A stretch of DNA of 64,000 nucleotides from a virus. The notes under the pieces were generated by a model. The model saw only the letters and a list, made by a program, of their open reading frames with translations. It did not search any database and was not told the DNA's origin. Position 1 is the stretch's first letter; every line of letters begins with the position of its first letter. Where the stretch lies: the IMG/VR virus record IMGVR_UViG_3300032829_000002, positions 56,083 to 120,082 of that record; one strand, written 5' to 3'. Shown piece by piece: positions 680 through 24,667 of this stretch. The translations under genes were made by a program, and so were the position numbers.

Positions 680-924
680 GCGCGCTTCAGACTGATGTTT
701 TTGACGCACCACCCAGACTCCTTCGCGTACTCGCGCAGGTAGGTGCGAAGAGCGTCTCGGGCGGGCTTCGGAATGGAATCCGTCAACCCTACCGTGACCC
801 GAAGTTCTTGATCTTCGGTGTCGACAAGAACATCCTGACGAAATCCCCCTCCGGCTCTTCCCAAGGAGCCGAGCACGTTCTGCAAGAGCGTGTACGGGTC
901 GTCAGTCTTCTGCGGAGGAAACAT
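634..924 (-). CDS. Small minus-strand hypothetical protein beside terminase
   Basis: This 96-residue frame fills the only gap between plus-strand genes here. It begins with ATG at 924, one base into the divergent terminase start codon, and its last 46 bases run antisense to the preceding plus gene. The composition is balanced, with a basic C-terminus (motif RAYVRFRLRK). No good Shine-Dalgarno is visible upstream of the ATG, so the call rests on composition and on the otherwise empty gap. No family is recognised. Confidence 0.45.
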   Translation of the reverse strand: MFPPQKTDDPYTLLQNVLGSLGRAGGGFRQDVLVDTEDQELRVTVGLTDSIPKPARDALRTYLREYAKESGWCVKNISLKRAYVRFRLRKASDKDS

Positions 925-2720
925 TGGTTGATGAGACTGTAGAGCAGTCGGAGCCGAGCGTCGACGAGGACCCGCTCGATGACAGCGCCGAGGAGGCTGC
1001 CTTCTTTGCGGAGCCTGTAGTCGTCGAAAACATCTTCGATGGACTCGAGAAGAAGGGGCCTGTCGATCGACGTCTGTCCGTCACGATTTCCCAGTTCACC
1101 GAGGCGGCCTTTCGCATGCCTCGGGAGGATGGTCTTCCCGGCTTCAAGAACTTCTCCTTCGAAGGCCGGCGTCATCTTCGAATGCCGTACGACACGTCGT
1201 CGCGACGCATCCTTCTCTGCACGGGCCGTCAGGTCGAGAAGTCCACTCTTCTTGGCAACCGCGCGATCGCGTACTGCTGCCTGGTCCCCTCTTTCAAGGT
1301 CCTCTACGTCTCCCCGACGTCGACGCAGACCAAGACGTTCTCGACAGATCGTCTGAAGGAGCCGATCGAGACCAGCGACATTCTGCGTGGCTTCACTAAC
1401 CGTGCACTCTCGCAGAACGTCTTCGAGAAGCAGTTCAGCAACTGGTCGAAGATCACGTTGCGCAACGCCTTCCTCAACGCAGACCGCACCCGCGGTATCC
1501 CTGCATGGATGCTACTGCTCGACGAGTTCCAGGACATTCTCTCGGACAACGTTCCTGTCATCGAGCAGTGCACGGGTCACGCACCCAAGCGATGGCGGCA
1601 GTTCGTCTACGCCGGTACTCCGAAGAGTCTCGACAACAACATCGAGTACTACCGCGCGCAGCAGTCGACACAGGGCGAGTGGATGGTTCCGTGCGATCAT
1701 CACGGAGGAGAAGGTGGTCGCTACTGGAACATCCTCGGTGAACGAAACATCGGCAGGACGAGCCTCATCTGCGAGAAGTGCGGAGGCCAGATCTACGCGC
1801 AGCATCCAGATGCGGTCTGGGCGGGGCAGGTCGAGAACGCGCCGTTCGAGAGCTACCGCATTCCGCAGCTCATGGTTCCGTGGAAGCCGTGGGAAGAGAT
1901 TCTTCTCGACTACGAGCGCTATCCTCGTGACAAGTTCTACAACGAGGTTCTCGGGCTCTCGTACGACTCAGGCATGCGACCGCTCACGATGGCGCAGGTG
2001 CAGGCGTGCTGCCGGTCGGACATCACGATGCATCCGGACACTCTCGAGAAGTACAAGGAGAAGGCCGTCGACAATCCAGTCTTCGCCGGTCTCGATTGGG
2101 GTACGGGCGAGAACACGTACACCGTGCTGACACTCGGCACGTACGTAAACATGAAGTTCCGCGTCATCTACATGCATCGTTTCACGGGCGTCGAGCTCGA
2201 TCCGCAGCTCCAGCTTCGTACGCTCGATGAGATCTTGAACGACTTCCGTGTGCTCATCATCGGCGCCGACTACGGTGGCGGCTTCGACCGCAACGACCAC
2301 CTCACCCGCAAGTTTGGTCCGAACCGTCTTGCGAAGTTTCAGTACATGGCGCGTGCCAAGCGCAAGGTCGAGTTCGACGCGAAGTTGCGCCGCTACAAGG
2401 TCTTTCGTACCGAGGTGATGAGCGACATCTTCAACGCGATCAAGCGCAGCAACGTCTTCGAGTTTCCTCGCTGGGAGGAGTTCAAGCAGCCGTTCGCGCA
2501 GGACATGTGCAACATCCACTCGGAGTACAACGAGACGCTCCGAATGATCCAGTACGACCACGGCCCCGACAGGCCGGACGACTCTTTCCACTCCCTGCTC
2601 TACTGCTTCCTCGCCTCGTGCATCAAGTTCCCGCGTCCCGACATCATCGCGCCGCTGCGTGAAGATCAGAACCGCGGGCCGATGATGTCGGTCTACTCTG
2701 GCCCGGTGAATCAGGGCTAG
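924..2720 (+). CDS. terL: Terminase large subunit (DNA-packaging ATPase and nuclease)
   Basis: This is the motor that pumps DNA into the prohead and cuts the concatemer. The protein has 598 residues. The ATPase half has a Walker A at residues 101-108 (GRQVEKST), a Walker B at about 196-201 (MLLLDE) and a coupling motif YAGTPKS near 228. A Cys/His pair region (C256, then CEKC at 282-285) may bind zinc. The nuclease half has the RNase H-like acidic residues D390 (in GLDWGTGE), D448 (in GADYGGG) and D551/D552 (in RPDDSFH). The start is TTG at 924, chosen because GGAGG lies 5-6 bases upstream and no ATG fits. No small terminase is seen in the window. Confidence 0.93.
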   Translation: MVDETVEQSEPSVDEDPLDDSAEEAAFFAEPVVVENIFDGLEKKGPVDRRLSVTISQFTEAAFRMPREDGLPGFKNFSFEGRRHLRMPYDTSSRRILLCTGRQVEKSTLLGNRAIAYCCLVPSFKVLYVSPTSTQTKTFSTDRLKEPIETSDILRGFTNRALSQNVFEKQFSNWSKITLRNAFLNADRTRGIPAWMLLLDEFQDILSDNVPVIEQCTGHAPKRWRQFVYAGTPKSLDNNIEYYRAQQSTQGEWMVPCDHHGGEGGRYWNILGERNIGRTSLICEKCGGQIYAQHPDAVWAGQVENAPFESYRIPQLMVPWKPWEEILLDYERYPRDKFYNEVLGLSYDSGMRPLTMAQVQACCRSDITMHPDTLEKYKEKAVDNPVFAGLDWGTGENTYTVLTLGTYVNMKFRVIYMHRFTGVELDPQLQLRTLDEILNDFRVLIIGADYGGGFDRNDHLTRKFGPNRLAKFQYMARAKRKVEFDAKLRRYKVFRTEVMSDIFNAIKRSNVFEFPRWEEFKQPFAQDMCNIHSEYNETLRMIQYDHGPDRPDDSFHSLLYCFLASCIKFPRPDIIAPLREDQNRGPMMSVYSGPVNQG

Positions 2721-3498: not shown

Positions 3499-4806
3499 AT
3501 GCACGACCTTCCGTTTCAGAGCCTCCTTCAACAATCGCACGCTCGTCCGATTTCGGGAGAAGAGCTCGAAGCTTTCGGCAAGAAAGCAGCCGATCTCTAC
3601 ACGCGCGGCGACGGTGACCTGACGCAAGCAGTGGTCGAGACCGTCAAGCACGCGGGGCTTTCTCCGGAGCAAGTTCGTCGCGTCGTCGAGTTCGCCAACA
3701 CGACCGCGTACTTGACCGAGTTCAAGAAAGAAGGCTCGCCCCATCGCGTCATCGAGTTCCAGGGCGGCCCGGCAGATCCGGCCGCGGTCCTTCAGGACCT
3801 GAACGATGGCGGAGGTGGGTCGACTTACGACCGTGGGATGCTCGACTACGCGTCACCTCCGGCGGAGACGAAGGTCGCGTCGGCCGCAGCCGAAGAGGCA
3901 TTCGCTTCGGCACTCTCTCGCCCCGAAGCGGCGATGGTGCAGCACAACCCGTTCGGGGAAGTGATCGAGCTGAAGGACAAGCTTGCGTCGCTCTACGAGC
4001 ACGAGACGTCGGTCCTCAGCGGTCTCGAGGGCATGTACATGGACCTCGCGGAGCAGCTCTACGGGCACGTCAAGCAGGCGGCCATGTCGGGCACGACGCT
4101 CGGGGAGGTGGTTCAGGCGTGGGCGCCGTTCGTCGCTGACCCCCTCTATGTCAAGACGGCATTCGAGATGATCGGACCGCGCCTCGTGCAGGAGGAGGTC
4201 TTCCGCACCCTCATCGACGTCGACGACTCGATCAGCAAGACCGCCAGCGAGCACCGGATGGTCAACGAGCAGCATCCGCTCGTCGTGACGATGACCGAGT
4301 TCTGCGAGACGCTCGACAAGCTCGCGGCGGTCCGCGAGACCCGAGAGCAGACCAAGCTCGCGTTGGACGAGACCGTGAGCTTCTTGCGCAAGGCGACGCC
4401 GGAGCGCGTTTCGGCCTTCTACGACAAGCTGGCGGAGATCGCTGGCGTGAAGGAGGCCGCACCGAAAATGCCGCGTCCTGGCCTGCTTCGAAGTGTGGTT
4501 GACACCTTCGAGGAGGGCGGAAAGCTCGTGGGAAAAGGCGGTAGGGCCGTGGGCGACCTGCTTTTCGGCCCCGGAAGCTCCGCGGCCGAGACCATGGGCA
4601 GAATCGCTGGCGGAGCGGTCACGCATATTCCGCACGCTATCGGTGGACTCGCTGCGGTCCGCGGCGCGCAGCACCTCTCTGCGCTCGGCGCTTCTCCTGT
4701 CGGCCAGACACTGAAGTCGTTCATTCCCGGCACGCCGGAGTATCAGCAAAAGAGCCAAGAGCTCGCGTACCAGTACAGCGGCTACCCCTTCCCCATGGGC
4801 TACTGA
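3499..4806 (+). CDS. Head-module virion protein with Lys-x-Ala repeats (unknown)
   Basis: This is a 435-residue, largely helical protein. Its C-terminal quarter (about residues 335-400) is glycine/alanine-rich and could insert in or lie on a membrane. Short Lys-x-Ala motifs recur (KKAAD, TKVAS, VKTAF, SKTAS, DKLAA, VKEAA), a pattern shared with neighbouring virion proteins but not with the capsid, sheath or tube. GGAG lies 7-8 bases before the ATG. It occupies the position of an internal head or portal-associated protein, but it does not look like a portal. Confidence 0.75.
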   Translation: MHDLPFQSLLQQSHARPISGEELEAFGKKAADLYTRGDGDLTQAVVETVKHAGLSPEQVRRVVEFANTTAYLTEFKKEGSPHRVIEFQGGPADPAAVLQDLNDGGGGSTYDRGMLDYASPPAETKVASAAAEEAFASALSRPEAAMVQHNPFGEVIELKDKLASLYEHETSVLSGLEGMYMDLAEQLYGHVKQAAMSGTTLGEVVQAWAPFVADPLYVKTAFEMIGPRLVQEEVFRTLIDVDDSISKTASEHRMVNEQHPLVVTMTEFCETLDKLAAVRETREQTKLALDETVSFLRKATPERVSAFYDKLAEIAGVKEAAPKMPRPGLLRSVVDTFEEGGKLVGKGGRAVGDLLFGPGSSAAETMGRIAGGAVTHIPHAIGGLAAVRGAQHLSALGASPVGQTLKSFIPGTPEYQQKSQELAYQYSGYPFPMGY

Positions 4807-4812
4807 GGCAAC

Positions 4813-5403
4813 ATGAACCCTCTCGAGAAGTACTTGGCGGAGAAGCACGGGACGAAGACGGCGGCGGGTCCGCTCGATGGTCTTCGTGGATTCGGGCAGC
4901 AGGTCGGTCGAGCGGCCGCAACCGGTGCGGGAACCGCCGTCGCCGGCGCCGCGATCGCAGGTGCTGGCGTCGCCGCTTCGAAGATTTGGGATGCAGTCAC
5001 CAAGGGTCGTGACTTCCGAGCGATGATGGGATCTTCATTCAACGCGGACCTGCACGAGTTCCTGGCGACGCGCCCGAAGGAGTTCAACGAGTCCTTCAGC
5101 TCTCTGCGCACGATCAATCCGGAGTTCACCAAGGACCCGATGATCGCGGGTACGTACATGCGCCGCATGATGATGTTGCGCCCGGACAGCGCTGGTGGCG
5201 CGCTCATCGAAGCGCTGTCGCACCGCAAGGCTCTTCCCGAGTCGGAGATCGGCGAAGCCTTTCTTCACAGCGCCGGCGGCGGCGTGATGGAGGGCACCAA
5301 GGCGCACATGCGGGAGCAGCAGCAAGCTACCCGTCGTCGCCCGGAAGGAGAGCACGGTCGTGGCGGAAGCGAGTACTTCCACGTGCCGTCCGGCCGCGAA
5401 TGA
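4813..5403 (+). CDS. Small head-module virion protein with Ala/Gly membrane-like segment
   Basis: The protein has 196 residues. The N-terminus carries the tag EKYLAEKHGTKTAAG, which resembles the starts of the proteins at 7136 and 24664. An Ala/Gly-rich hydrophobic stretch lies at about residues 34-57, followed by a soluble helical domain and a basic, glutamine-rich tail. GAGG precedes the ATG. The stop overlaps the next gene by 4 bases, so it is coupled to the protease gene. It may be an internal or scaffold-associated head protein; there is no firm family match. Confidence 0.72.
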   Translation: MNPLEKYLAEKHGTKTAAGPLDGLRGFGQQVGRAAATGAGTAVAGAAIAGAGVAASKIWDAVTKGRDFRAMMGSSFNADLHEFLATRPKEFNESFSSLRTINPEFTKDPMIAGTYMRRMMMLRPDSAGGALIEALSHRKALPESEIGEAFLHSAGGGVMEGTKAHMREQQQATRRRPEGEHGRGGSEYFHVPSGRE

Positions 5404-7139
5404 TCAAGACGAGCTTCTTCTCGAGTCATGCGGCGTACGGGCCAGCGGCGATCCCGCTGTTCACGCGTGCCGATGAGTACCTCGAGAAGGTCGCGTCTCC
5501 TGACTTGTTGCCGGAAGTCGTTCGTTACATCCACACGCTTCGTCCACGCAGCGACGCGCAGTACGTTCTGCTGAACGCGATGGGTGCTGGCGAGTTCTGG
5601 GGCTCGAACGTCAACGGCGACTACTTCCCCGAGGCTGCGCTCATCCACGCTCCGGATGACTGGAGCGGCAATCCGCTGCTTGATCGCGAGAAGGCCAAGA
5701 CGTGGGGCTACGGCTACCCGACGTTCTACTTGGCGCACCCGTACGCGCACCATCGGAACAAGGACGCGACGCGCGCCTTCGGAGAAGTCGAGCTCGCTCT
5801 CTGGAACAACCGGATGAAGCGCGTCGAATTGGTCACCCGCGTCGACAAGGACAAGTGCGACCAGTTCGGCGGTACGGGCGTCTGGGACAAACTCAAGGCC
5901 GGACACTTCCCGGACGTTTCGATGGGCTGCAAGGTTCCCTTCGATACGTGTTCGATCTGCCTCGACTGGGAGGCGTACCGAAAGGCGATGGCGACGTTCA
6001 AGAAGGATCGTCATCGTACGCCCGGAGAGGCAATCCTCGAGGTTCACAAGCAGCTCAAGGCGAAGAACGGCAAGGGCATCCGCGGCTTGTCGATCACGCG
6101 CGCCGACTACTGCGAGCACGCGCGCGGCTCGATGAACAAGATCTTGTCCGACGGACGAAAGGTCTTCGTCTACAACGACTACCCGAAGTTCTTCGACATC
6201 AGCTTCGTCTTCATCGGTGCCGACAAGACGGCGAAGGTGATGATGAAGATCGCCGACGGCGAGAGCAAATTGTGGTCGTTGCCCTCAGCGGAAATCGCAG
6301 AGAAGCTCGGGTACGTCGAAGAAGACGAACAAGAAGAAAAGACTGCGAGCGCTTCTGAAGAAGACGCGTTCAAGATGGCCTTCCTCGGGAAAGCCGCGAA
6401 GCTGAAGAAGAGCGAGATCGTGAAAGACACGGTCCCCTCGCAGTTCGCTGGCAAGGCTGTTCCGCTGCTCACTCGTCACGAGCCGGATCTACCCGAGGAG
6501 GTGCTCGATGCGCTTGCGTCGCGTCCGCTTGGTGAAGCGCTCTCTACGACCACTGGGCTCGGTATGGTTCTTCGACCGAAGGAGTTCCAGCGGATCATCC
6601 TCGTTCGCGGAGGTCAAAAAGACGTCGCGGACGATCTCGAGCAACGTGGAGTCGTCTTTCCAAAGAGCGAAGAAACGGACCCCGTTTCCCTTCGTTCCGA
6701 CCTCTTTCACTCCGCGCTCGCGAAGCTGCTTCTCCCGCTTCTTTCCGATCGATCTGCCTTCGGACCTGCCATCGAGAAGCGGGTTTTGGTCATCATTGGG
6801 AAGGGGTCGCCGGTAGCCCGAAAAACAGATTCTTCCCATTCGTCAGATCTGCTGCGTAAGATTGGGAGTGCGTACAACGGCTATCGCCAAGCGATTCTTC
6901 ATCTCGTTCCTGAAGTGCAGGACATGATCGATCGCTCCGGTCTTTCCGACGGTAGTCTCAAGAAACTTGCACAGGCCCACGTGAACGAGCTATTCACATC
7001 CTTGTCGGCTGCCTATCTCAAGAACGCGTTCTTGGACGAGGTCGGCCACTCCAAACAGGCGAACGCCGGCGTGGAGAGGGGACTCCCCTCGAGGAACACG
7101 TGGAACTCACCAACCCTCGATGAAGGAGTCCACTCATGA
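5400..7139 (+). CDS. Probable prohead (capsid maturation) protease
   Basis: This 579-residue protein probably cleaves scaffold and capsid proteins in the prohead. Its N-terminal domain has features of phage maturation serine proteases: an NGDYFP element at residues 72-77, a histidine cluster AHPYAHHRN at 112-120, and a serine in PDVSMGC (S174). H113, H117 or H118 together with S174 would be the candidate catalytic pair. A cysteine set (C177, C184, C187, then YCEH at 237-240) could form a zinc site. The C-terminal part contains KTASASEE and KAAKLKK, possible self-cleavage or tag motifs. It lies just before the candidate scaffold and capsid genes, as expected. The fold assignment is by motif only. 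Confidence 0.65.
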   Translation: MIKTSFFSSHAAYGPAAIPLFTRADEYLEKVASPDLLPEVVRYIHTLRPRSDAQYVLLNAMGAGEFWGSNVNGDYFPEAALIHAPDDWSGNPLLDREKAKTWGYGYPTFYLAHPYAHHRNKDATRAFGEVELALWNNRMKRVELVTRVDKDKCDQFGGTGVWDKLKAGHFPDVSMGCKVPFDTCSICLDWEAYRKAMATFKKDRHRTPGEAILEVHKQLKAKNGKGIRGLSITRADYCEHARGSMNKILSDGRKVFVYNDYPKFFDISFVFIGADKTAKVMMKIADGESKLWSLPSAEIAEKLGYVEEDEQEEKTASASEEDAFKMAFLGKAAKLKKSEIVKDTVPSQFAGKAVPLLTRHEPDLPEEVLDALASRPLGEALSTTTGLGMVLRPKEFQRIILVRGGQKDVADDLEQRGVVFPKSEETDPVSLRSDLFHSALAKLLLPLLSDRSAFGPAIEKRVLVIIGKGSPVARKTDSSHSSDLLRKIGSAYNGYRQAILHLVPEVQDMIDRSGLSDGSLKKLAQAHVNELFTSLSAAYLKNAFLDEVGHSKQANAGVERGLPSRNTWNSPTLDEGVHS

Positions 7140-7939
7140 GTGGGATGCACGAATACCTCGCGCACGCGTACGGCACGACCCAGCCTCAGCAGACCGCTGA
7201 CGCCGAGAAGGTCGCTCAAGCCGAGCTCTTCGCGAAGATGGCCGCCGAGAACGGCATCGACCTGAGCACGCTGAACGACAGCCAGATCACCGAGCTCTGG
7301 AACGCCACGTTCGCCAAGACGGCGGGCGAGGAAGAGAAGAAAGAGCACGGCCACGCGCACAAGGACAAGAAGGCTGCGCAGCACGGCCACAAGCACCACG
7401 GCGAGAAGAAGGCCGAGGCGCAGGCGATGAACGAGTGGCTCCAGACCAAGGAAGCGCAGGCGAAGTTCGCCGAGGCCGACTTCTTCGGTCGTCAGATGGC
7501 GCACGCCTACGTGGCGGAGCTCCGCAAGATCGCCTCCGAAGGCGGCTTCGACTTCCTGGGCTCGAAAGAGGCGGCGATGCCGCCGCAGCTCGCGGCCGCG
7601 CTCGGCAAGAAGGACGGCGGCGGCGAGAAGGAAGAGAAGAAGGACGAGGAGAAGAAGGAAGAGAAGAAGGAGGAGAAGAAAGCCTCCGTGAGCAAGAAGG
7701 CGTCGCCTTCGGCGCTCACCCAAGTCTCTGCCGCCTTCGCCATCGAGAAAGCGGCCTCGGCCGGTTTCGATCGCGACGAGGCGACCGCGCGCGTGTCGGC
7801 GGTCCTCACCCTCGGCTTCAACGAGGACAACAGCAAGGTGGCCGCCGCCACCGAGTTCCCGCAGGCCAAGGAGATCCGCGCTCTCGAGCTCCTCGAGGCG
7901 GCGGGTTACCCCGTGACCTGGGAGCAGCCCAAGGGCTGA
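7136..7939 (+). CDS. His/Lys/Glu-rich candidate scaffold or internal head protein
   Basis: This 267-residue protein sits between protease and capsid genes, the usual place for a scaffold. It starts with the tag MHEYLAHAYGT. Residues 71-88 hold seven histidines alternating with Gly/Ala/Lys, which would bind divalent metal. A near-pure Lys/Glu tract lies around residues 160-184 and is encoded by a polypurine run at about 7624-7682. Several Lys-x-Ala motifs (EKVAQ, AKTAG, EKKAS, EKAAS) are possible protease sites. The ATG overlaps the previous stop (ATGA). Confidence 0.7.
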   Translation: MSGMHEYLAHAYGTTQPQQTADAEKVAQAELFAKMAAENGIDLSTLNDSQITELWNATFAKTAGEEEKKEHGHAHKDKKAAQHGHKHHGEKKAEAQAMNEWLQTKEAQAKFAEADFFGRQMAHAYVAELRKIASEGGFDFLGSKEAAMPPQLAAALGKKDGGGEKEEKKDEEKKEEKKEEKKASVSKKASPSALTQVSAAFAIEKAASAGFDRDEATARVSAVLTLGFNEDNSKVAAATEFPQAKEIRALELLEAAGYPVTWEQPKG

Positions 7940-7952
7940 CAAGGAGAGACCG

Positions 7953-9218
7953 TTGTGGGATGGGAGTGCAGCCATGCGCAAGCAAGCCGAGGGGGAATCC
8001 TCGGGAGGCTCACTCCTGTCCGCAGCGGGATCTTCTCCGCTTCCGCAGCCGCAGATCGTCTCGCGACTTGCGCCGGGGAAGCGGGGGCCAACTGGAATGG
8101 CCCATCGGAACAACTTCACCCGAGTGAACTCGGGCTCGATGCCAGCACCTGATGCTGGCGCAGTCTCTCAGAAGTCGCTACCACCAAAGTACGGGTCAAT
8201 CATGAACGGAACAGGGATGGCATCGAAACCGTCGCTTCAGGACCTGGTCAAGGCAGCGCAGGCTGGCTCCATCTCCCGTGCGCGCATCAGCGAAGAGGCC
8301 CGTCGTCAGGCGGAGAACCTCTCGGGGGAGAAGACCGCGAGCGCACTGGAGCAAGAGATGTCGGTGCCGACGGAGTACGTCGACAAGCTCGCCGGCGCTC
8401 TCGAGTTCCTCGCGAGCGAGTTCCACAAGAGCGCGGCCAGCGCCGCGCCGCCGGCGCACATCACCGAGCACATCCAGGCTCCCGGCAAGGGACCCGGTGC
8501 GCTCGAGGTGTCGCACGCGACCGCATCGACGTCGCTTCCGGACCACAAGGGTCAGGCGCATCAGCAGCCGCCGCACAAGCCGGGCACCGAGAAGGTGCGC
8601 CCGTCGGATCAGGCTGCCAACGCGCTCGAGACGAACGAGCACCACTCGACGCCGGGGCACACCCCGCAGAAGGTGGCCTCGGCAGATCTGCTCGAGAGCA
8701 ACCTCGCGCGCCTCGGCCTGAAGAAGGTCGCCGCGGAGAAGTGCGAGAAGTGCGGCAAGGACAAGACCGCGTGCGAGTGCAAGCCCGAGAAGAAGGCGTC
8801 TGCTCTCCTCGAAGGCAACCTCGCGCGCCTCGGCATCAGCAAGAAGGCCGAGGACGCGATCAACCCGGCGCACATCTCGGCGGGTCCCGCCGTTCCGCCG
8901 GAGACCAGCGCTGCGGGTGAAGCGGGCGGCGCGCCCGCCGGCGGCAAGCCCGGTCCGAACACCGAGCTCGTCGGCTCGAACCAGGCGGCCATCAACTACA
9001 CCAAGGGGCAGGCCAAGTCTGGTCCGAAGAGCGACATGAAGAAGTGGCTCGACGAGCCGGCTCTGTCGTCGCAGACCGACAGCACGCTCCGCGCGGCGTT
9101 CGACAGCACCGCGCAGGCGGGCACCAAGTTCGGCAGTGCGAACGGCGGCGTGAAGGTCGCGGCTGCGCGCGCTCTCCTCGAGACCCTGCTCGACGAGCAG
9201 ACCAACCCGACGGCGTGA
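7953..9218 (+). CDS. Low-complexity head protein with internal repeats and a Cys knuckle
   Basis: This 421-residue, mostly disordered protein is rich in Ala, Pro, Gly and Lys. It contains two copies of a repeat at about residues 242-260 and 282-299, with core NLARLG followed by KKVA or SKKA. Between them lies a compact cysteine motif C264-x2-C267-x6-C274-x-C276 that could bind zinc or iron. The start is TTG at 7953, with AAGGAG 6 bases upstream; the first in-frame ATG (7974) has no ribosome site. It is probably a scaffold or internal head component; the function is not established. Confidence 0.68.
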   Translation: MWDGSAAMRKQAEGESSGGSLLSAAGSSPLPQPQIVSRLAPGKRGPTGMAHRNNFTRVNSGSMPAPDAGAVSQKSLPPKYGSIMNGTGMASKPSLQDLVKAAQAGSISRARISEEARRQAENLSGEKTASALEQEMSVPTEYVDKLAGALEFLASEFHKSAASAAPPAHITEHIQAPGKGPGALEVSHATASTSLPDHKGQAHQQPPHKPGTEKVRPSDQAANALETNEHHSTPGHTPQKVASADLLESNLARLGLKKVAAEKCEKCGKDKTACECKPEKKASALLEGNLARLGISKKAEDAINPAHISAGPAVPPETSAAGEAGGAPAGGKPGPNTELVGSNQAAINYTKGQAKSGPKSDMKKWLDEPALSSQTDSTLRAAFDSTAQAGTKFGSANGGVKVAAARALLETLLDEQTNPTA

Positions 9219-9228
9219 GGAAGGGACC

Positions 9229-9582
9229 ATGGAGAAGATCAGCCACGACAAGGTCGCAGAAGTCCTCAACGACGCTGCCACCGCGCTGCGTTCGGTCACG
9301 GCCGAGCGCGACGAGCTTCGCACGAAGGTCGCTCAGTACGAGCGCCGTGCGGAGGCGGAGAAAGTCGCTCACGAGATGCAGAGCAAGGGCATCAGCAACG
9401 AGCCCTTCGAGCAACTCGTGACGAACCTCGAGAAGATGGCCGAAAGCGGCAAGCTCGGGGAGATCAAGAACGCAGTGAACCTCGTCGGTCCCGACATGGG
9501 ACGGAAGCTCGCTTCGCTCACCAACGACAACCAGTCTCACGTGGGCGGCTCCGACTTGGAGTCGTTCCTCACGGGCGGCTGA
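9229..9582 (+). CDS. Short coiled-coil head-module protein
   Basis: The protein has 117 residues with a coiled-coil N-terminal half (about residues 5-60, heptad-like ELRTKVAQYERR) and an EKVA motif. The C-terminus is helical and ends in a Gly/Asp/Ser tail. AGGGACC precedes the ATG. Its place directly before the decoration and capsid genes fits a small scaffold-core or assembly protein. No family is recognised. Confidence 0.72.
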   Translation: MEKISHDKVAEVLNDAATALRSVTAERDELRTKVAQYERRAEAEKVAHEMQSKGISNEPFEQLVTNLEKMAESGKLGEIKNAVNLVGPDMGRKLASLTNDNQSHVGGSDLESFLTGG

Positions 9583-10187: not shown

Positions 10188-11309
10188 ATGAGTGTCCCCG
10201 CACGAGTCCTCAACGACCTGTTCACCCAGAAGCTGGGCACGCAGGAAGGCAAGGAGAAGATCGCAGAGTACGGCGGTTCGTACGTCCGTGATCGTCTCCG
10301 CGAAGTGTCCTACGCGAGGAAAGTTCTTCCTCCCGAGCAGGTCACCCGCGCCGACTGCCAGCGCAGCGTCAACCACGACACCCTCGTCAAGATCGTGGAC
10401 GTCGAGCCGCAGAGCCGCGCGCTCTCGATCTCGTTCCGCGGTCAGCCCACCGCCCGCTTCATCCGCGGTGCGAAGGCCGAGGTCGCCTTCTTCACCATCT
10501 CCTCGGAGATGTTCCAGAAGACGGAGCAGGAGCTTCTCGCCTACGAGATGCCCATCACCAAGATCATCGAGGACAACTCGGTGAAGGACATCCAGGAGAT
10601 CGAGGACCGCGAGTTCACGATCAACATCGAGGCGGCCGTCCAAGCGCTCCAGCAGGAAGCGAACGGCGGCACGATCACCTCGCTGAACTGGTCGAACATC
10701 AACGCGGGCGCCGTCGTCGAGTTCTCCGTCCGCAAGGGCGAGCTCGCGCGCAACGCCGGCAAGAACGACGCGACCGTGCGCCCGATCCAGCGCCCGGACC
10801 TCGTCAACCTCTTCAAGTTGCTCGACGGCAACCGCCTCCGCTCGGAGCGCGTCCTGATGACGGAAGTCGACTGGGACGACCTCCTTCAGTGGACGGTCGA
10901 GGACTTCGGCGATCGCCTCCAGTCGGAGACGGCGGTCGACGGGTACAAGTACAACACGCTGCTCGGCCGCGCGTACATCCGCACGGTCAAGACGGACATC
11001 CTCCGCGCGGGCAACGTGTACTGCTTCACCCGCCCGGAGTTCTTCGGGAAGTTCTACGTCCTGAACAACTCGAAGTTCTACATCGACAAGATCGCCAACA
11101 TGATCACCTTCCAGGCGTGGGAGGACATCGGTATGGGGATCATCAACATCGCGGCGGTGCGCAAACTCGAGCTCTACTCGGCCGACGCGACGTCGAACAA
11201 CGCGGATGGGCTGCTCTCGAGCTTCATCCCGGTCGCCGAGGACGCGCTCGGTGCGGTCAACAACCGCGTCGACACGGGCCTCCAGTTCCCGCAGGTCAAC
11301 CAGTACTGA
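10188..11309 (+). CDS. Major capsid protein (probable HK97 fold)
   Basis: The 373-residue protein has the usual size and layout of an HK97-fold capsid: a helical N-terminal arm, a mixed alpha/beta centre, and a C-terminal region with NVYCFTRPEFFGKF and a conserved-looking MITFQAWEDIGMGI. It follows the protease and scaffold genes, has an AGGAGAAGGAGAAG ribosome site, and is followed at once by a strong terminator. These are all features of the main head protein. No protease tag motif is seen inside. Confidence 0.85.
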   Translation: MSVPARVLNDLFTQKLGTQEGKEKIAEYGGSYVRDRLREVSYARKVLPPEQVTRADCQRSVNHDTLVKIVDVEPQSRALSISFRGQPTARFIRGAKAEVAFFTISSEMFQKTEQELLAYEMPITKIIEDNSVKDIQEIEDREFTINIEAAVQALQQEANGGTITSLNWSNINAGAVVEFSVRKGELARNAGKNDATVRPIQRPDLVNLFKLLDGNRLRSERVLMTEVDWDDLLQWTVEDFGDRLQSETAVDGYKYNTLLGRAYIRTVKTDILRAGNVYCFTRPEFFGKFYVLNNSKFYIDKIANMITFQAWEDIGMGIINIAAVRKLELYSADATSNNADGLLSSFIPVAEDALGAVNNRVDTGLQFPQVNQY

Positions 11310-12024: not shown

Positions 12025-12525
12025 GTGTCGCTCGAGGGCATTCCTGGGGTCACTCAAACGATGAGGAACTTCGTACAGGACGTGCGCCTGTACATGCGGG
12101 ACCTCCCTGAGTTGAACCGCATCGTGCGTGGAGAGGAGTCGAGCGATCGGCAGATCGCTTGGTCGATTCTCGATGCCCTCTCCGACTTCAACGGCACGCC
12201 GCACTTCACCTCGATGTCCCTCGAGGAGATGCTCATGCGCAACCAGCACGCCCTTCTGCGCCGCATGACGGTCATCTCGCTCATCGAGTCGGTCGCTCTT
12301 CTTCAGATCCGCAACCACATCAACTACTCGACCGGCGGCATCAACGTGGGCGTCAACGACAAGGCCCCGTTGCTGCTATCCTGGCTCCAGTACTACAAGT
12401 CGTACACCGATCAGCTCAAGCAACGCGTGAAGGTCGCTCTCAACATCGAGGGCATCTTGGGTCCGTCGAACAGCGGCGTGCACTCGGAGCTCTGGGCCGT
12501 CAACGCCACCTACGCAGCCTACTGA
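12025..12525 (+). CDS. Head/neck structural protein (unknown family)
   Basis: This is a 166-residue, mostly helical protein with a clear globular pattern. The start is GTG at 12025 with GGAGG 7 bases upstream, three bases after the preceding stop. It lies between capsid and large virion genes, where connector or completion proteins usually sit. No recognised motif. Confidence 0.72.
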   Translation: MSLEGIPGVTQTMRNFVQDVRLYMRDLPELNRIVRGEESSDRQIAWSILDALSDFNGTPHFTSMSLEEMLMRNQHALLRRMTVISLIESVALLQIRNHINYSTGGINVGVNDKAPLLLSWLQYYKSYTDQLKQRVKVALNIEGILGPSNSGVHSELWAVNATYAAY

Positions 12526-12532
12526 GGACACC

Positions 12533-13033
12533 ATGGCGATTTGGAAGGTCAACAAGTTCCGCGAGCTCGACGAGCTCAACATGTTCCTGAACGGCGCCGT
12601 TGTCGGCGGCGACGTCTCGTACTTCGCGCAGACGATCGCTCAGGGTGGCGGCGGTCAGCGCGACATCCCTCCGCTCGTCGGGCTGACCTTCAAGACGAAG
12701 GCGCCTGGCCCCGCAGGCACGTGCACCTTCATCGCGGGTGCGAACCCAGGCGGCAAGCTCCTCTTCAAGGAGATCAAGTCGCAGATCGAGGGAGCGATCG
12801 CGGGCGTCAAGGTCCGCCAGTTCGAAGGCCACTTGGTCATCGTCGAGTCCTCGCCGGCGAACGGCATCACCATCGACAAGACGGGAACGGCCAACGCGGT
12901 TCTCGGCTTCGACACCGGCAACGACACGATCGGCAAGGTCTACGGCACACCGTATGGCACGCCGACGCCGCCGTACTTCGGCTTCGCGTACTCGGTCAAC
13001 GACAACATGCACGTCGTCTACACCTTCGAGTGA
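12533..13033 (+). CDS. Virion protein with sheath-like beta module
   Basis: The 166-residue protein carries a module (about residues 80-135) of the type 'strand, helix, strand, loop, LGF': IEGAIAGVKV, then HLVIVESS, then AVLGFDTGNDT. The same arrangement appears in the sheath at 20069 and in the protein at 61273. Glycine-rich loops and beta strands dominate. GAGG precedes the ATG. It is probably a neck or tail-completion component; that is inference from the shared module and position. Confidence 0.7.
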   Translation: MAIWKVNKFRELDELNMFLNGAVVGGDVSYFAQTIAQGGGGQRDIPPLVGLTFKTKAPGPAGTCTFIAGANPGGKLLFKEIKSQIEGAIAGVKVRQFEGHLVIVESSPANGITIDKTGTANAVLGFDTGNDTIGKVYGTPYGTPTPPYFGFAYSVNDNMHVVYTFE

Positions 13034-13040
13034 GGAGTCC

Positions 13041-15575
13041 ATGTCGTTCGAACGCAACATCGTCGGAGACCTCCCGCTCGCAGCGGCGAGTGCCTTCTTT
13101 CTGAAGCTGAAGACGGCTGCTCAGGCTCCTCTCGATCCCCCGGACGAGACCGGCGGCCTCGAGGGGCAGTTCGAAGCGCCTGTCGAGCAGGTTCTTCCTC
13201 TGCTCGTGCAGATGGTCGAGAACGAGTTCAAGACCATGTACGCGTACAAGACGTACGCGCAGTCGCTCCGCGACTTGTCGCACTTCGCGATCGCAGAAGA
13301 GTTCGAAGATCACTCCGAGGACGAGATCGAGCACGCCGACTGGCTGCTTCGTCGTCTCGCTGTTCTCGGTGGTCCTTCGCAGCTCAACGACATCCCGGCG
13401 CCGCCGCCGGCGACCGATCCGTCGGCGATCATCAACACGATGATCCGCATGGAGCAGGAAGGCATCGCCAAGTGGCGCGTGCTGCACTCGATGCTCGGAG
13501 AGAACCCGGCGAAGTACAAGGTCGAGGAGTACCTCACCAAAGAGCAAGAGCACCTCGACGAGCTCTGGCAGATGCTTCCGAACACTCCGTCGATGTCGAT
13601 GCAACCGATGGCGGCGGCGCAACCTCCTGCGGCCCCGCAGCCGCAGCAGCGCACTCCAGCGACCAACAATCCGGACGCAAGCGGCACGATGCCGCCGGCG
13701 ATCGAGAAGAAGGAAGCCATGGCGAAGTTCGCCGAGCACGTGCGCGTGATGCGCAAGCGCGGCTCGGGCAACTTCGATCAGCACGGCGACGCGACCGCGA
13801 TGATGGAGGACTTCCTCAAGAACGCGAGCGCCAAGATGGCGGTTTCGCACACGTGGGTGAAGGATCGAGTTGCTCGTGCCATCAATCGCGGAGCCAAAGA
13901 AAGTCGTGTGCGCGACTTCCAGAACGCGATGGGACGTGTCGTGGCCAAGCATCGTGGCCCTACGGGACCCGTTGCGCAGAAGGCGGATGCAGCAAAGCGA
14001 ACTGCTGAAGAGGTGCTGGGGCTGAAGCGCGTTCGTGCTGCTACCGAGAAGAAAGCGGGCATCGGCGGCGGCTATGACTGGCGCCCGATGTCGGCGATTC
14101 CCGGAACGGCGGGAGACACAGGCCGTGTCGAGCAACCCGTTCAGCAGCTCCAGGTCCAGCTTCCGGCCATCGGCAGCTACACGGGCAAGGAGACGACCAA
14201 GGCGGACCTCAGCTCGCCCGCTCCTCGTCGTGGTGGCGGAGGCGGTGGTGGAGGCGGGGACGACATGGGGCTGGGCGGCCTCGACTTCGGAAAAGAGGGA
14301 TCGATTCCGCTCTGGAAGAAGCTCGCCAAGGCCGACGCCGTCTCGAGGGGCCACGAGCGCGCGGATGCGGGGCTCGCGGCGCGCGCGCGGCAGACGGAGG
14401 GAATGCGCGGTGAGCTCTACGGCGACGTGATCGGCCGCATTCTCGGCGCGACCGGTGGCTTCTACGCGGGCAAGCCGGGTGGTTCTTTGCCGTCGATCGC
14501 AGCGGCTGCACTCGGGCAGCACTTGGGCGGCAAGGCGGGCAAGACCGTCGGACGTGAGGTCGACACGCGCCGCACCAAGAAGAAGCTCGGCGGCATCAAG
14601 CAGGCGTTCGAGGACACGATGAATCTGCTCGGGCAAGAGCAGATGCTTCAGCAGCAGCAGGGCGCCAACGAAGCGGCCTTCTACATGGAGCGCTCGCGCG
14701 CGCTCGCCGAGCAGCAGAAGCAGATGGAGCAGGCGCTCCAGGCGGCGCAGCAGGAGAAGGAGCAGCAGGCGCAGCAGCTTGCGGAGCTCCAGAACGCGGT
14801 GCAGCAGCAGACGCAGATGTCGAACGATGCGACGACGCGCGCGTTGATGCAGACGGTGCAGGCGAACAACTCGGCGCTTCAGAGCCGTCAGCTCGCGAAC
14901 GACACGACGGCGGCGCTTCAGAAGTTGAAGCAGACGCTGCGGGAGATCGCTGGTGATGACAGCGGTTCGAACACCGGCGGTATGGGGTCTGGTGGTGAGC
15001 CGGCGACCAGCCTTCAGCAGCAGGGTCCGGCGGCGCAGGCACCGAGCGCGGGCAACACTCCGTCGGCAGCGCCCCCCGAAGGTGGAACGACGACTCCGGG
15101 TCCGACCGAAAGCCCAGACTCGGGCGCGAGTGGTCAACCGGGACGCACGGTCGGGCAGCAAGATCAGAACCGCCCGCAGACGGGTGACCAGTTCAAGAGC
15201 GCGAGCGTGAAGGACCTCGCCAAGGGCGCGCTTCACGGAGCGAAGCAGATGCTCACGTCTAAGGCTCCGTACGCGCTTGGTGGCGCGGCACTGATGGGAG
15301 GTCTTCAGGCGGCCAACATCCACGGCGGCTCGGAGAAGCTTCGTCAGGAGGTCGCGGCGGACGAGAAGACGCCTGCGGGATCGTTCGGTGAAGCGATGAT
15401 GCAGGCGCAGCGCAAAGCGCGGCTTGGTCTGGCGGAGGCTGGGGAGAAGTTCCCTGGTGCTTCTACGGCGATGGCAGCTCTCGGCGGTGCAAGCATGGGT
15501 GCGAGTCTCGGTCCCGCGCTGGTGGGCCGACTTCAGCGCGCGCCCGGTGACATCAAGACTCTGATGGGAGGTTGA
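13041..15575 (+). CDS. Large virion protein with N-terminal ferritin-like diiron domain
   Basis: The protein has 844 residues. Residues 50-180 form a four-helix pattern that matches bacterioferritin/ferritin-like proteins, with every metal ligand in register: E62 (with Y69) in helix A, E95 and H98 (EIEHAD) in helix B, E138 in helix C, and E168 with H171 (EQEHLDEL) in helix D. A Pro/Gln linker, a basic helical region, a nine-glycine run, a glycine-zipper segment (about 465-520), a long Gln-rich coiled coil (about 535-640), a Pro/Ser/Gly linker and two Ala/Gly hydrophobic segments near the C-terminus follow. The ATG at 13041 has GAGGAG upstream. It is probably an internal or ejected virion protein. 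The ferritin-like call is strong by motif; its activity is inference. Confidence 0.8.
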   Translation: MSFERNIVGDLPLAAASAFFLKLKTAAQAPLDPPDETGGLEGQFEAPVEQVLPLLVQMVENEFKTMYAYKTYAQSLRDLSHFAIAEEFEDHSEDEIEHADWLLRRLAVLGGPSQLNDIPAPPPATDPSAIINTMIRMEQEGIAKWRVLHSMLGENPAKYKVEEYLTKEQEHLDELWQMLPNTPSMSMQPMAAAQPPAAPQPQQRTPATNNPDASGTMPPAIEKKEAMAKFAEHVRVMRKRGSGNFDQHGDATAMMEDFLKNASAKMAVSHTWVKDRVARAINRGAKESRVRDFQNAMGRVVAKHRGPTGPVAQKADAAKRTAEEVLGLKRVRAATEKKAGIGGGYDWRPMSAIPGTAGDTGRVEQPVQQLQVQLPAIGSYTGKETTKADLSSPAPRRGGGGGGGGGDDMGLGGLDFGKEGSIPLWKKLAKADAVSRGHERADAGLAARARQTEGMRGELYGDVIGRILGATGGFYAGKPGGSLPSIAAAALGQHLGGKAGKTVGREVDTRRTKKKLGGIKQAFEDTMNLLGQEQMLQQQQGANEAAFYMERSRALAEQQKQMEQALQAAQQEKEQQAQQLAELQNAVQQQTQMSNDATTRALMQTVQANNSALQSRQLANDTTAALQKLKQTLREIAGDDSGSNTGGMGSGGEPATSLQQQGPAAQAPSAGNTPSAAPPEGGTTTPGPTESPDSGASGQPGRTVGQQDQNRPQTGDQFKSASVKDLAKGALHGAKQMLTSKAPYALGGAALMGGLQAANIHGGSEKLRQEVAADEKTPAGSFGEAMMQAQRKARLGLAEAGEKFPGASTAMAALGGASMGASLGPALVGRLQRAPGDIKTLMGG

Positions 15576-17369: not shown

Positions 17370-18284
17370 ATGCCCGTCTCGATCACCATCAACGACTTCC
17401 TGGTTCGGTCGCTCGACAACGCGCTGAATCAGGTGTCGTGGTCGATCGGAGACACGTCGGAAGATGTCCTCGACTACACCTTCCAGCTTCTTCGTTCCGA
17501 GTCACCGAGCGGGCCGTTCGACAAGCTGACCGAGCCCTTCAGCGATCGATTCTTCTTCATCGACAACGCCATCTACGTCGGCGACCGATGGCGGATGCTG
17601 CACTACCAGCTTCTCGTCACGCACGTTCCGAGTGGCGATACGAAGACGTTCGGTCCTGTCACGCTCGAGCCCACTCCCGACTTGATTGCTCTCGAGCTCC
17701 GACGGCACATCCAGCTTCTCTTCCACGAGTACGCAGGTCGCCGCTGCTGGGTTCTTCCTGCACGCACGTTCGGACAGCGATGCGACTGCTGGAGTCCGAC
17801 GTTGAAGAAGCGCACCCGATCGCGCTGCGTGCGCTGCTACGACACGGGGTTCGTTCGCGGGTACCTCTCTCCGATCGAGGTGTGGATGCAGGTCGACCCC
17901 TCCGCGAAGAGCGAGCAGACGTCGAACGTCGGGCCGCAGCAGCAGTCGAATACGACTGCCCGCTTGGGGTACTACCCGCCGCTCAAGCCGCGTGACTTGA
18001 TCATCGAGTCCGAGAACCGCCGCTGGCACGTCGTTTCTGTTTCTTCGACCGAACACCTGCGTGCGACGGTGCATCAGGAAGTGCAGCTTCACGAAGTGCC
18101 TCCGCGTGACATCGAGTTCGAGATTCCTCTCAAGCTCGACGAGGCACTTCAGGACATCTACTTCGAGCCGCCGCGCAACTACACGATGCCGATGAACCTC
18201 GAGAACTTCTTGAAAGAGGAGATCCCCAACATCTTCTCGCTCTACAGAAACAGCATCCCGAATCCCGGAGACTTCGGGCAATGA
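17370..18284 (+). CDS. Neck/tail virion protein with FN3-like start and zinc-ribbon
   Basis: The 304-residue protein has an N-terminal beta domain resembling a fibronectin type III repeat (residues about 15-75, with NQVSWSI and YTFQLLRSE). A four-cysteine cluster near 132-155 (CDCWSP and RCVRCYDTGF) probably binds zinc. The C-terminal domain is beta-rich. AAGG lies before the ATG and the stop overlaps the next ATG (ATGA). Position between head and sheath genes suggests a connector or tail-terminator role; no firm family match. Confidence 0.72.
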   Translation: MPVSITINDFLVRSLDNALNQVSWSIGDTSEDVLDYTFQLLRSESPSGPFDKLTEPFSDRFFFIDNAIYVGDRWRMLHYQLLVTHVPSGDTKTFGPVTLEPTPDLIALELRRHIQLLFHEYAGRRCWVLPARTFGQRCDCWSPTLKKRTRSRCVRCYDTGFVRGYLSPIEVWMQVDPSAKSEQTSNVGPQQQSNTTARLGYYPPLKPRDLIIESENRRWHVVSVSSTEHLRATVHQEVQLHEVPPRDIEFEIPLKLDEALQDIYFEPPRNYTMPMNLENFLKEEIPNIFSLYRNSIPNPGDFGQ

Positions 18285-20068: not shown

Positions 20069-22918
20069 ATGGCGGCAGAACTTCCGAAGCCCGGCGTCGA
20101 GGTGATCCAGCAGTTCCGGACCACCTCCCCGACGGTCGTCACCCCCACCCTCGTTCCGTGCATCGTCGGCGCCTGCAAGCAGATCGTCGATGCCGTGAGC
20201 ACCAGCGCAGCCGGCGCGCAAGCCGTGAACACGGGAGCACTCGTCAGCCTCCCCGCGGTCTTCACCGCGATCGCGGCGGGCGGCGGACCGCCGGTCGTCT
20301 ACACTCTCAACGGCAACCTGCTCTTCTCGGTGAACGGCCAAGTCGATGTCACCGTCACCTTCGCGAGCGGAACCTACACGCCCGCGACGGTCGTGCAGAT
20401 GATCAACGCGGCGCTCGCGGCCGTCGGCGAGTCGGATGCATACGCCGAGCTCGTTGGCACTGCGCAGTGGCGCCTGCGTACGACGGGAACGGGCGACAGC
20501 CAGTTCCTCACGATCGACGGCGCCTCGACGGCAGGTGTGCTCACCGCCTTCGGCTTCCTGTCGGGTGGTGAGACGCGCTTCGGCGCGGGCAGCTACGCCG
20601 GCTGGCAGGTGCGCATTCCGACGACGGCGTTTCCGGACCCGCGCGGGAACATGTCGCAGCTCTCCATCGATCCGGCGACGGTCCGCGCGTTCCTCGGAAC
20701 GGGTGCGACCAACACGCTCCTCGAGGCACTGCGCACGTCGTCCGTGCTCCGCAAGGGCGGCGCGGTCGCTGCGATCGACGACGGCAACGGCAACAACACG
20801 ACCCCGTTCGTGGAGATGTCGGGTGAGGACTTCACCTCCGTGTCGACGCCTGCGACAGTAGCGACGGTGACGGGCGCGGGTGGTCCCACCTTCGCTTCGC
20901 TCGACGGCAAGACGCTCATCATCTCGGATGGGCGCGCGCCGAAGACGGTCACCTTCAACAATCCGGGAAGCGCGGCCGCAGTGGCGGCGCAGATTCAGGC
21001 AGCGTTCAACCCGCTCGACGGGTTGACGTGCACGCTCAGCGGCAGCGATCTCGTGCTCACCTGCACGCGCCTGCGCGAGGACGGTCTCACGACCGCGCTC
21101 GGCGAGGATTCGGAGATCGTGATCTACGGCGGCTCGGCGGTCTACCCGACCAACCTGCTCGACTCCGGCCTCACGCCGACCGTCAAGATCGCTCGCTACG
21201 TCGGCTCGCCGATGGCGGCGAAGGCGGGCGACGAGCTCTGGGTCGATGGTGTCTACATCGGCCTCATCAGCCAAGTGGCTCCGGGTTCGCACAATGCGCG
21301 CTTGAAGCTCAACACCGAGGTGCTGACGACCTTCACGGGTACGCACTTCTACGTCGTCGCCAAGAACCTTCAGCCGATGCCTACGATGACTGGCCGTCCC
21401 GCGCCGAACCTCATCGTCGACACCTCGGGCAACGCGTTGCTCAAGCTCGGCATCCTGCGCGACACGACCGGCAAGATCGTCGAGGCAGCCACGGCCTCTT
21501 CGCTTCTTCCGGGGCGCGCGCCGATGTACGTCGCGTACCACGCGCTTCGCCTCGACGTCACGCAGAAGGCCGCCAATCCGGGATTGCTGCGCGTCAACGA
21601 CACCATCCAGCTCGGCAACCTGCTCGACCCGGTGTCCCCCGACAACCCGCTCGCGCTCGGCATGTACTTCGCGCTGCTCAATGGTCCGGGCATCCAGGTG
21701 ACCGGCCTTGGAGTCGACGCGGTCGCTGCGAACGAGCCGTACGGTACTGTCGACGCCTTCACGCGCGCGGCGACGTACCTCGAAGCGTTCGAGGTCTACG
21801 GCCTCGTTCCGCTCACGCACGAGAGCTCGGTCGCCGAGGTCTTCAAGACCCACGTCGACACGATGAGCGCGCCGGCGAACAAGGGAGAGCGCATCTGCTT
21901 GTTCAACCCGGACAAGCCGACGCACAAGGTCCACACGCTCGTCGCCAGCGGCGTCAACGGCAACAGCGTGGGCAACACGGGCCTCACGTTCGACACGGGT
22001 GTGTCGAACCTCGCCGCGCTCCTGCTCGCGCAGGGCATCGACCCGACCGGCGCGATTCCGGTCTCGGCGGGTCTCTTCTTGAACATCGCGGCGGACACGA
22101 ACAACTACAACATCTCCGCGATCTCCGGCTCGGTCGTCACCGTCAACGAGACGTTCTCGCCGCAGCAGAACTCGGACGGCTTCTACGCGACGACGTCGAT
22201 GTCGACGCCGCTCATCGAAGAGCCGTTCGCGATCCGCATCCGCGGCGCGGCGCTCACGCTCACCGACGGCTCGCCCGACAAGGATGGCATCGCCGACACG
22301 TACGCTGCGCTCGCGCAGACGTACCTCGATCGCCGCTTCTGGCAGATCGTGCCGGACAAGTGCAAGGCCGTGCTCAACGGCATCGAGCAGCTCATCGAGG
22401 GCTTCTTCATGGCGGCGGCGATCGCCGGCATGATCGGCCAGCAGCCGCCGCAGCAGTCGTTCACCAACTTCCCGATGACCGGCTTCACCGGCGTCGTGGG
22501 GTCGAACGACTTCTTCAGCGAGAGCCAGATGAACCGCATGGCGGCTGGCGGAAACTACATCGTCATTCAAGAGGTCGACGGCGCGCCGCTCACCTCGCGC
22601 ATGGCGCTGACCACCGACATGAGCTCGATCGAGACCCGCACGGACTCGATCACGAAGATCGTCGACTTCTGCGCCAAGTTCTACCGCCGTGGCCTGAAGA
22701 ACTTCATCGGGCGGTTCAACATCACGCAGGGCTTCCTCGACTCGCTCGGCCACGTGCTCGAGGGTCTGTCGAGCTTCCTCAAGGAAGCGGGCGTCCTCAT
22801 CGGGGCGAAGATCAACAACATCGTGCAGGACGACACGGCACCGGACACGGTGCTCGTGGACATCACGCTCGATGTTCCGTACCCCTGCAACTACATTCGT
22901 TTGACGCTCACCATCTGA
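20069..22918 (+). CDS. Tail sheath protein
   Basis: This is the contractile sheath subunit. The protein has 949 residues, longer than the T4 sheath (about 660). It begins with the conserved PGVEVIQQF strand that links subunits. Two inserted copies of a beta module follow (about 90-180 and 270-370), then a long middle domain. The C-terminal domain has the sheath-type ending with FYRRGLKNFIGRFN, helix, and beta strand VLVDITLDVPYPCNYIRLTL. AAGGAG precedes the ATG. The tube gene follows directly, as in other myoviruses. Confidence 0.88.
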   Translation: MAAELPKPGVEVIQQFRTTSPTVVTPTLVPCIVGACKQIVDAVSTSAAGAQAVNTGALVSLPAVFTAIAAGGGPPVVYTLNGNLLFSVNGQVDVTVTFASGTYTPATVVQMINAALAAVGESDAYAELVGTAQWRLRTTGTGDSQFLTIDGASTAGVLTAFGFLSGGETRFGAGSYAGWQVRIPTTAFPDPRGNMSQLSIDPATVRAFLGTGATNTLLEALRTSSVLRKGGAVAAIDDGNGNNTTPFVEMSGEDFTSVSTPATVATVTGAGGPTFASLDGKTLIISDGRAPKTVTFNNPGSAAAVAAQIQAAFNPLDGLTCTLSGSDLVLTCTRLREDGLTTALGEDSEIVIYGGSAVYPTNLLDSGLTPTVKIARYVGSPMAAKAGDELWVDGVYIGLISQVAPGSHNARLKLNTEVLTTFTGTHFYVVAKNLQPMPTMTGRPAPNLIVDTSGNALLKLGILRDTTGKIVEAATASSLLPGRAPMYVAYHALRLDVTQKAANPGLLRVNDTIQLGNLLDPVSPDNPLALGMYFALLNGPGIQVTGLGVDAVAANEPYGTVDAFTRAATYLEAFEVYGLVPLTHESSVAEVFKTHVDTMSAPANKGERICLFNPDKPTHKVHTLVASGVNGNSVGNTGLTFDTGVSNLAALLLAQGIDPTGAIPVSAGLFLNIAADTNNYNISAISGSVVTVNETFSPQQNSDGFYATTSMSTPLIEEPFAIRIRGAALTLTDGSPDKDGIADTYAALAQTYLDRRFWQIVPDKCKAVLNGIEQLIEGFFMAAAIAGMIGQQPPQQSFTNFPMTGFTGVVGSNDFFSESQMNRMAAGGNYIVIQEVDGAPLTSRMALTTDMSSIETRTDSITKIVDFCAKFYRRGLKNFIGRFNITQGFLDSLGHVLEGLSSFLKEAGVLIGAKINNIVQDDTAPDTVLVDITLDVPYPCNYIRLTLTI

Positions 22919-24422: not shown

Positions 24423-24667
24423 CTCAGCCCAAAACGTCCAGCGCGCCGCCCGCAGCGACGGAGGTTCCCTCGAGGCCGCCTCGTCGTCGCATCTCTGGTT
24501 CGTTGATGCTCTCCCCCGAGGTCATCGAGATGAAGAGGGAGCAAGAAGAGGCGAAGAGACGTGCGGCGCGCCTCGCGGCGTTGGTTGCCCCCTCTCCCGA
24601 TCTCTCCCCCGAACTCGTTCCCGATCCCTTCCCGAGCTACGCAGTGACCGCTACCGAAAAGAAATGA
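24419..24667 (+). CDS. Small proline-rich basic/helical protein
   Basis: The 82-residue protein has a Pro/Ser/Arg-rich start, a charged helix (EVIEMKREQEEAKRRAARLA) and a Pro-rich end. ATGA junctions join it to the genes on both sides, so it is translated as part of the operon. The function is unknown; a small chaperone or linker is possible. Confidence 0.62.
   Translation: MTQPKTSSAPPAATEVPSRPPRRRISGSLMLSPEVIEMKREQEEAKRRAARLAALVAPSPDLSPELVPDPFPSYAVTATEKK

Follow-up and report, generated by a model that had tools for sequence, protein, structure and literature searches.

What would a ferritin-type diiron site be doing in a protein encoded among the head and tail genes of a phage? The question is raised by an open reading frame in a 64,000-nucleotide stretch of viral DNA (the window), taken from a virus record of 120,082 bases, in which an earlier note had described a bacterioferritin-like metal site joined to a long structural protein.

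The gene and its place in the virion gene cluster

The reading frame (13041-15575) runs from an ATG at 13041 to a TGA at 15573-15575, as read directly from the sequence, and encodes 844 residues, none of which is cysteine. It belongs to a late gene cluster in which all genes point in one direction and which contains the following features:

924..2720, + strand, terminase large subunit (context; PF05876, E 6.8e-12)
5400..7139, + strand, head-cluster protein, homologue of the Arash gp222 'structural protein' (context; phmmer E 7e-37; annotation)
10188..11309, + strand, major capsid protein (context; phrog_2522, E 1.2e-9; 29% identity to the Arash major capsid protein)
12025..12525, + strand, neck/connector-type protein, homologue of the Arash gp233 'structural protein' (context; phmmer E 2e-13; annotation)
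13032..13037, + strand, ribosome-binding sequence GAGGAG (read directly)
13041..15575, + strand, 844-residue protein with a ferritin-like domain, in the neck/connector cluster (open reading frame with GAGGAG upstream; relatives at the same position in other phage contigs)
17370..18284, + strand, neck/connector-type protein, homologue of the Arash gp234 'structural protein' (context; phmmer E 9e-18; annotation)
20069..22918, + strand, tail sheath (context; phrog_279, E 8.6e-8)

Judging from this gene order, the phage is contractile-tailed and the gene is part of its neck/connector section, lying between two neck/connector homologues (12025-12525 and 17370-18284) and upstream of the tail sheath. 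The homologues of the 12025 and 17370 genes are adjacent to one another in Vibrio phage D69, ahead of a sheath homologue, with the ferritin gene absent between them. Arash and D69 are the nearest isolates; their head-to-tail regions yielded no homologue of the 844-residue protein, and the case for its presence in the virion is therefore made through its neighbours: given the synteny and the annotation of the adjacent genes as structural in Arash, the protein is likely to be a virion component.

Two features of the cluster proteins may be recorded here. K-x-A tripeptides are enriched over shuffled expectation in the head-cluster proteins encoded at 3499-9582 of the window, with 12 observed against 2.4 expected (3499-4806), 14 against 6.0 (7136-7939), and 6 against 1.1 (9229-9582), and are perhaps processing or assembly motifs. 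Several cluster proteins (13041-13121, 4813-5403, 7136-7939, and 24664-25458) have at their start a short helix-like peptide and then K-x-A or E-K-x-A, which could be a shared targeting peptide. As for the host, the contig that carries one relative was binned with a Myxococcota MAG, a hint too weak for host assignment.

A ferritin-like bundle with a putative diiron site

The architecture of the protein was delineated as follows:

13041..13121, + strand, N-terminal peptide, residues 1-27, MxFExxLxxxIPLxEAAxFFxxLKtA (alignment of relatives and domain-less syntenic proteins)
13137..13172, + strand, linker PPDETGGLEGQF, residues 33-44 (alignment)
13182..13574, + strand, ferritin-like four-helix bundle, residues 48-178 (PF00210, E 9.3e-15; AlphaFold2; Foldseek)
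14316..14675, + strand, glycine-zipper part, residues 426-545 (homologous to domain-less relatives, phmmer E down to 4.5e-13)
14661..15110, + strand, Gln/Ala-rich probable coiled coil, residues 541-690 (sequence; weak matches in domain-less relatives)
15246..15572, + strand, C-terminal part with glycine-rich hydrophobic stretches, residues 736-844 (shared by domain-less relatives, phmmer E down to 2e-13)

The N-terminal peptide, in which AlphaFold2 predicts helices at 2-8 and 13-26, is common to relatives lacking the ferritin-like domain and is possibly a targeting or assembly peptide. The linker PPDETGGLEGQF is kept in nearly all members with the ferritin domain, whether or not they carry the metal site, and directly after the bundle come a Pro/Gln-rich linker and some 650 more residues.

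Residues 55-182 matched the PF00210 Ferritin profile at 55.2 bits against a cut-off of 24.5, the sole such match in a six-frame search of the record, and the same profile was detected in 23 of the 27 family members. The top match of a PDB sequence search was the Dps-like protein PA4880 (E 7.8e-7, improving to 4.6e-12 with a profile of the site-bearing relatives), followed by bacterioferritins and ferritins. The four-helix bundle claimed in the earlier note was likewise returned by AlphaFold2, whose model of the residues up to 190, built from 27 natural sequences (mean pLDDT 87.7, pTM 0.74), contains helices at 48-75, 81-110, 127-152, and 157-178, mostly with pLDDT 91-98, together with the long B-C crossover of such bundles. 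The top Foldseek matches were all ferritin-like with a probability of 1.00, albeit at modest E-values (5.6e-5 at best), and included the Dps-like PA4880, thioferritin 2vzb, mini-bacterioferritin 9qq4 (rmsd 2.0), 2qqy (1.9), and bacterioferritin (Bfr) 1bcf (2.7). Neither a PHROGs family nor an INPHARED relative matching the domain was found.

Seven residues of the putative site were located by sequence alignment with bacterioferritin 1sof, where they fall on E18, Y25, E51, H54, E94, E127, and H130, and each is invariant in the 11 complete site-bearing relatives:

13224..13226, + strand, ligand E62 (Bfr E18)
13245..13247, + strand, Y69 (Bfr Y25 position)
13323..13334, + strand, ligand pair E95-x2-H98 (Bfr E51/H54)
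13452..13454, + strand, ligand E138 (Bfr E94)
13542..13553, + strand, ligand pair E168-x2-H171 (Bfr E127/H130)

All seven stand where they had originally been placed, and the alignment bears out what appears to be a complete ferritin-type ligand set, six ligands matched to those of bacterioferritin, in a protein encoded within a phage virion-gene cluster. It had been conceded that the proposal would suffer if no phage homologues shared the ligands; the search returned 11 complete site-bearing sequences. Their bundles display pairwise identities of at least 0.51 (mean 0.62), and all seven site residues fall among the 39 invariant columns out of 182 reference columns, an outcome with a chance of about 1.3e-5 by our own arithmetic. 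A chance resemblance to ferritin was rejected on the combined evidence of profile, fold, and ligand invariance. A functioning metal centre is the best explanation for the invariance of the whole ligand set and the tyrosine in the site-bearing part of the family, where metal binding is considered highly likely.

Which class of ferritin?

The designation "bacterioferritin", under which the domain had been introduced, proved too specific, and this identity was rejected on Met52 and helix E: the haem-ligand Met52 position is occupied by Ile96 in the query and by L, T, or I in the other complete site-bearing relatives, and no helix follows residue 178 in the AlphaFold2 model to 190, the next segment being the Pro/Gln-rich linker. 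The best matches in both sequence and fold are instead Dps-like. In classical Dps, the ferroxidase site lies between subunits. It has its own ligand set, whereas the query carries an intrasubunit Bfr-type set, and classical Dps was likewise rejected. Rubrerythrin, characterised by PF02915 and a rubredoxin FeS4 site, was set aside with a marginal PF02915 match (23.0 bits for the domain alone and 18.4 for the whole protein, cut-off 22.8) and no cysteine. The query does possess the Bfr-type site without helix E by which the DPSL/thioferritin group is recognised; the conserved cysteine pair of thioferritin is absent from its 844 residues, and the curated Dps models NF009990 and NF040955 scored 24.8 and 20.0 bits against cut-offs of 158 and 250.

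Relatives with and without the site

Relatives were gathered by IMG/VR scans in which the domain or the capsid protein served as query, and by one bacterial-genome scan, giving 26 complete distinct domain sequences (query included) plus partial ones at contig ends. All seven residues E62/Y69/E95/H98/E138/E168/H171 are kept in 11 of the 26. In the remaining 15, several site residues have been lost or replaced, always including E62 and H98, with the fold retained as far as sequence and prediction can tell; the metal site is hence absent in the majority of known relatives. The earlier suggestion of a structural relic is accordingly divided by these data: it does not fit the site-bearing lineages, in which the ligands are invariant, and holds in part for the 15 relatives that have the fold with ligands lost or changed.

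The site-less sequences fall into several patterns. Six of them (L108, L114, L103, L104, L110, and L116) display H95-A/T/S98-E138-C168-H171, in which H95, E138, C168, and H171 are invariant (mean identity 61%); this may be a re-tooled single-metal site. Four others (L111, L112, L115, and L117) show S/N62-Y69-E95-E98-E138-A168-H171, with Y69, E95, E98, E138, and H171 invariant in place of the site set, possibly another metal site. A K/R62-A98-D168 pattern is found in two relatives, and L054, L066, and L080 each have their own. Residues outside the site are shared by all complete domains, among them P34, G38, E41, R77, R105, G111, P121, and Q139; the 15 site-less relatives keep these as well as D173. 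For L080, in which no ligand is left, a ferritin bundle was still predicted by AlphaFold2, with an alignment that included site-bearing rows; in this run as in that of the query, site-bearing and site-less rows were mixed, and the two are not independent tests of fold retention. Since the site-less relatives keep the fold and the non-ligand residues, as L080 exemplifies, the bundle would appear to have a second, metal-independent role.

The history of the site differs according to the tree consulted. On the domain's own tree, calculated with the ligand columns left out, the site state needs one or two changes, whereas on the capsid tree it needs six, and the three states of site, no site, and no domain need 12. 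This conflict makes exchange of the gene among related phages its likely and simplest reconciliation, and leaves the number of site losses uncertain; the many independent losses suggested by the capsid tree are not claimed here. Paired loss of ligands gave no signal of use, at most three independent pairs being available among those listed, a number without statistical power. In one relative (L003, 4989-7568), the protein is represented by two open reading frames of 461 and 388 residues, split within the glycine-zipper part, either a real split or an assembly error.

The same protein without the domain

Comparison of 80 capsid-related loci, in many of which the syntenic gene is visible, revealed a domain-less version of the protein in at least 15 phages whose capsid gene is related, including L016, L019, L023, L026, L027, L033, L043, L046, and L057. 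These proteins carry a similar N-terminal peptide, MxFExxLxxxIPLxEAAxFFxxLK, and match residues 426-545 (E down to 4.5e-13) and/or 736-844 (E down to 2e-13) of the query. As the peptide and the body are shared and the domain is absent, the ferritin-like domain is, by these alignments, a module placed between peptide and body in an otherwise conserved protein of the virion gene cluster.

Possible roles of the bundle

The account favoured here, to which somewhat better than even weight is given, is that of a neck or head structural or assembly protein whose bundle serves as a docking module and, in the lineages retaining the site, also as a diiron oxidation centre. The head-tail (neck) cluster of a contractile-tailed phage would here encode a protein with a structural or assembly task, with the bundle inserted between the N-terminal peptide and the glycine-zipper/coiled-coil body in part of the phage family. 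The bundle would act primarily as a folded docking or assembly module, and in the six-ligand lineages, that of the window among them, it would additionally house a ferritin-type diiron centre within one chain. By analogy with Dps-like and mini-bacterioferritin proteins, such a centre may oxidise Fe(II) with O2 or H2O2, and ferroxidase or peroxidase chemistry of this kind is thought probable. The oxidation of Fe(II) could in turn spare virion protein or DNA some Fenton damage while particles are assembled, stored, or entering the cell, although protection as the actual benefit is put forward only tentatively. A broader proposition, in which a virion-borne metal-centre module is diversifying through intact diiron sites, re-tooled sites (H95-E138-C168-H171 or Y69-E95-E98-E138-H171), or none, and thereby brings redox or metal chemistry to the neck or head, is speculative and somewhat unlikely.

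The principal competitor is a purely structural module, in which the bundle mediates oligomerisation or docking and any metal present is a structural staple without catalysis. The loss or change of ligands in 15 of the 26 complete domains with other invariant residues kept, as well as the phages of the family that do without the domain, would suit this proposal, yet 11 relatives with a mean identity of about 62% retain, without exception, all six ligands and the tyrosine matching Bfr Y25, and a staple has no obvious need for the exact ferroxidase set and tyrosine; it is regarded as unlikely. Should the product instead be an accessory enzyme of the infected cell, expressed late and not built into particles, it would resemble the free-standing Dps and manganese catalase genes of gut phages, proposed to act during infection (PMC8008677). 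The fusion of the domain to the glycine-zipper/coiled-coil body in every member that a contig end does not truncate, and a neck-cluster location wherever the position is readable, render this decidedly improbable.

Iron-centred explanations fare worse. Storage, as contemplated in the earlier note, would entail a 12- or 24-mer shell mineralising iron, and the nearest solved structures do include the Dps-like dodecamers PA4880, 2vzb, and 2clb; helix E of the 24-mer ferritins is absent, however, and a Pro/Gln-rich linker with about 650 residues would have to be fitted on every subunit of a closed shell, so that such a cage is very unlikely for a domain placed early in a multidomain chain of 844 residues. 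A "Ferrojan horse" hypothesis, whereby a virion displays iron for uptake through the iron receptors of the host, already exists, and a "ferritin" has been reported in particles of phage Sajous1 (PMC10892097). The authors of that study saw no TonB or FeoB dependence (PMC10892097), and the present gene lies in the neck cluster rather than among tail fibres. Moreover, Sajous1 gp217 (L124 4948-5301) is a 117-residue DUF5856 protein (E 1.3e-28) in which the ferritin ExxH ligand pairs are absent; it was rejected as a precedent for a virion ferritin, and does not carry over to the query. Display of iron is the most improbable of the explanations weighed.

Comparison with known systems

The best matches of the query are the Dps-like proteins with a Bfr-type diiron site, namely PA4880 (8w1d/8w1e), the Sulfolobus DPS-like protein 2clb, and the B. 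fragilis DPSL/thioferritin 2vzb. They have in common with it the intrasubunit E-Y-ExxH-E-ExxH set and the absence of helix E, but are free-standing cage subunits, whereas the query is a multidomain phage protein devoid of cysteine and hence of the thioferritin pair. Bacterioferritin and mini-bacterioferritin (1bcf, 1sof, and 9qq4) have the same six ligands and tyrosine in a four-helix bundle (rmsd 2.0-2.7); unlike them, the query has Ile96 in place of the haem Met52, and it is without the helix E of classical bacterioferritin. The ferritin-like cargo of encapsulins associates with an HK97-fold shell, yet constitutes the content of a cellular compartment and not part of a phage neck-cluster protein. 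Searches of the literature for virion diiron proteins, or for encapsulated ferritin with an HK97 prohead, found nothing, and neither a PHROG, an INPHARED record, nor a paper covering the present family was found.

Among viral proteins, BFVD contains long proteins of uncultured Caudovirales (A0A6J7WIS1, A0A6J7WVS4, and others) that are annotated as Dps or prohead protease and show a ferritin-like fold; like the query, they bear this fold within a long phage protein, in some cases one named as belonging to the head cluster, and their identity to the query is 11-18%. The prohead-protease-annotated A0A6J7WIS1, A0A6J7XDU5, and A0A6J7WPK9 matched the fold with TM 0.56-0.64 on the query. From these models, the proteins so annotated are possibly another head-cluster fusion, and phage proteins fused to the ferritin-like fold probably occur beyond the present family.

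Dps and manganese catalase genes are known from Gratiaviridae and Lactobacillus phages, where they encode separate proteins (PMC8008677, PMC6669764). Like the query, they belong to the ferritin-like superfamily and occur in phages, but they are described as separate enzymes of the infected cell, whereas the domain reported here is part of a neck-cluster protein. Known phage ferritin-like proteins have thus been described as free-standing accessory enzymes. A ferritin-type diiron domain within a neck-cluster protein, with all its ligands in 11 complete relatives and as a ligand-less fold in others, would imply that phage particles can carry oxygen or iron chemistry, or else that the fold of a redox enzyme was recruited as a structural component, and the natural series within one syntenic protein, from site to changed site, no site, and no domain, offers a ready-made set for testing which.
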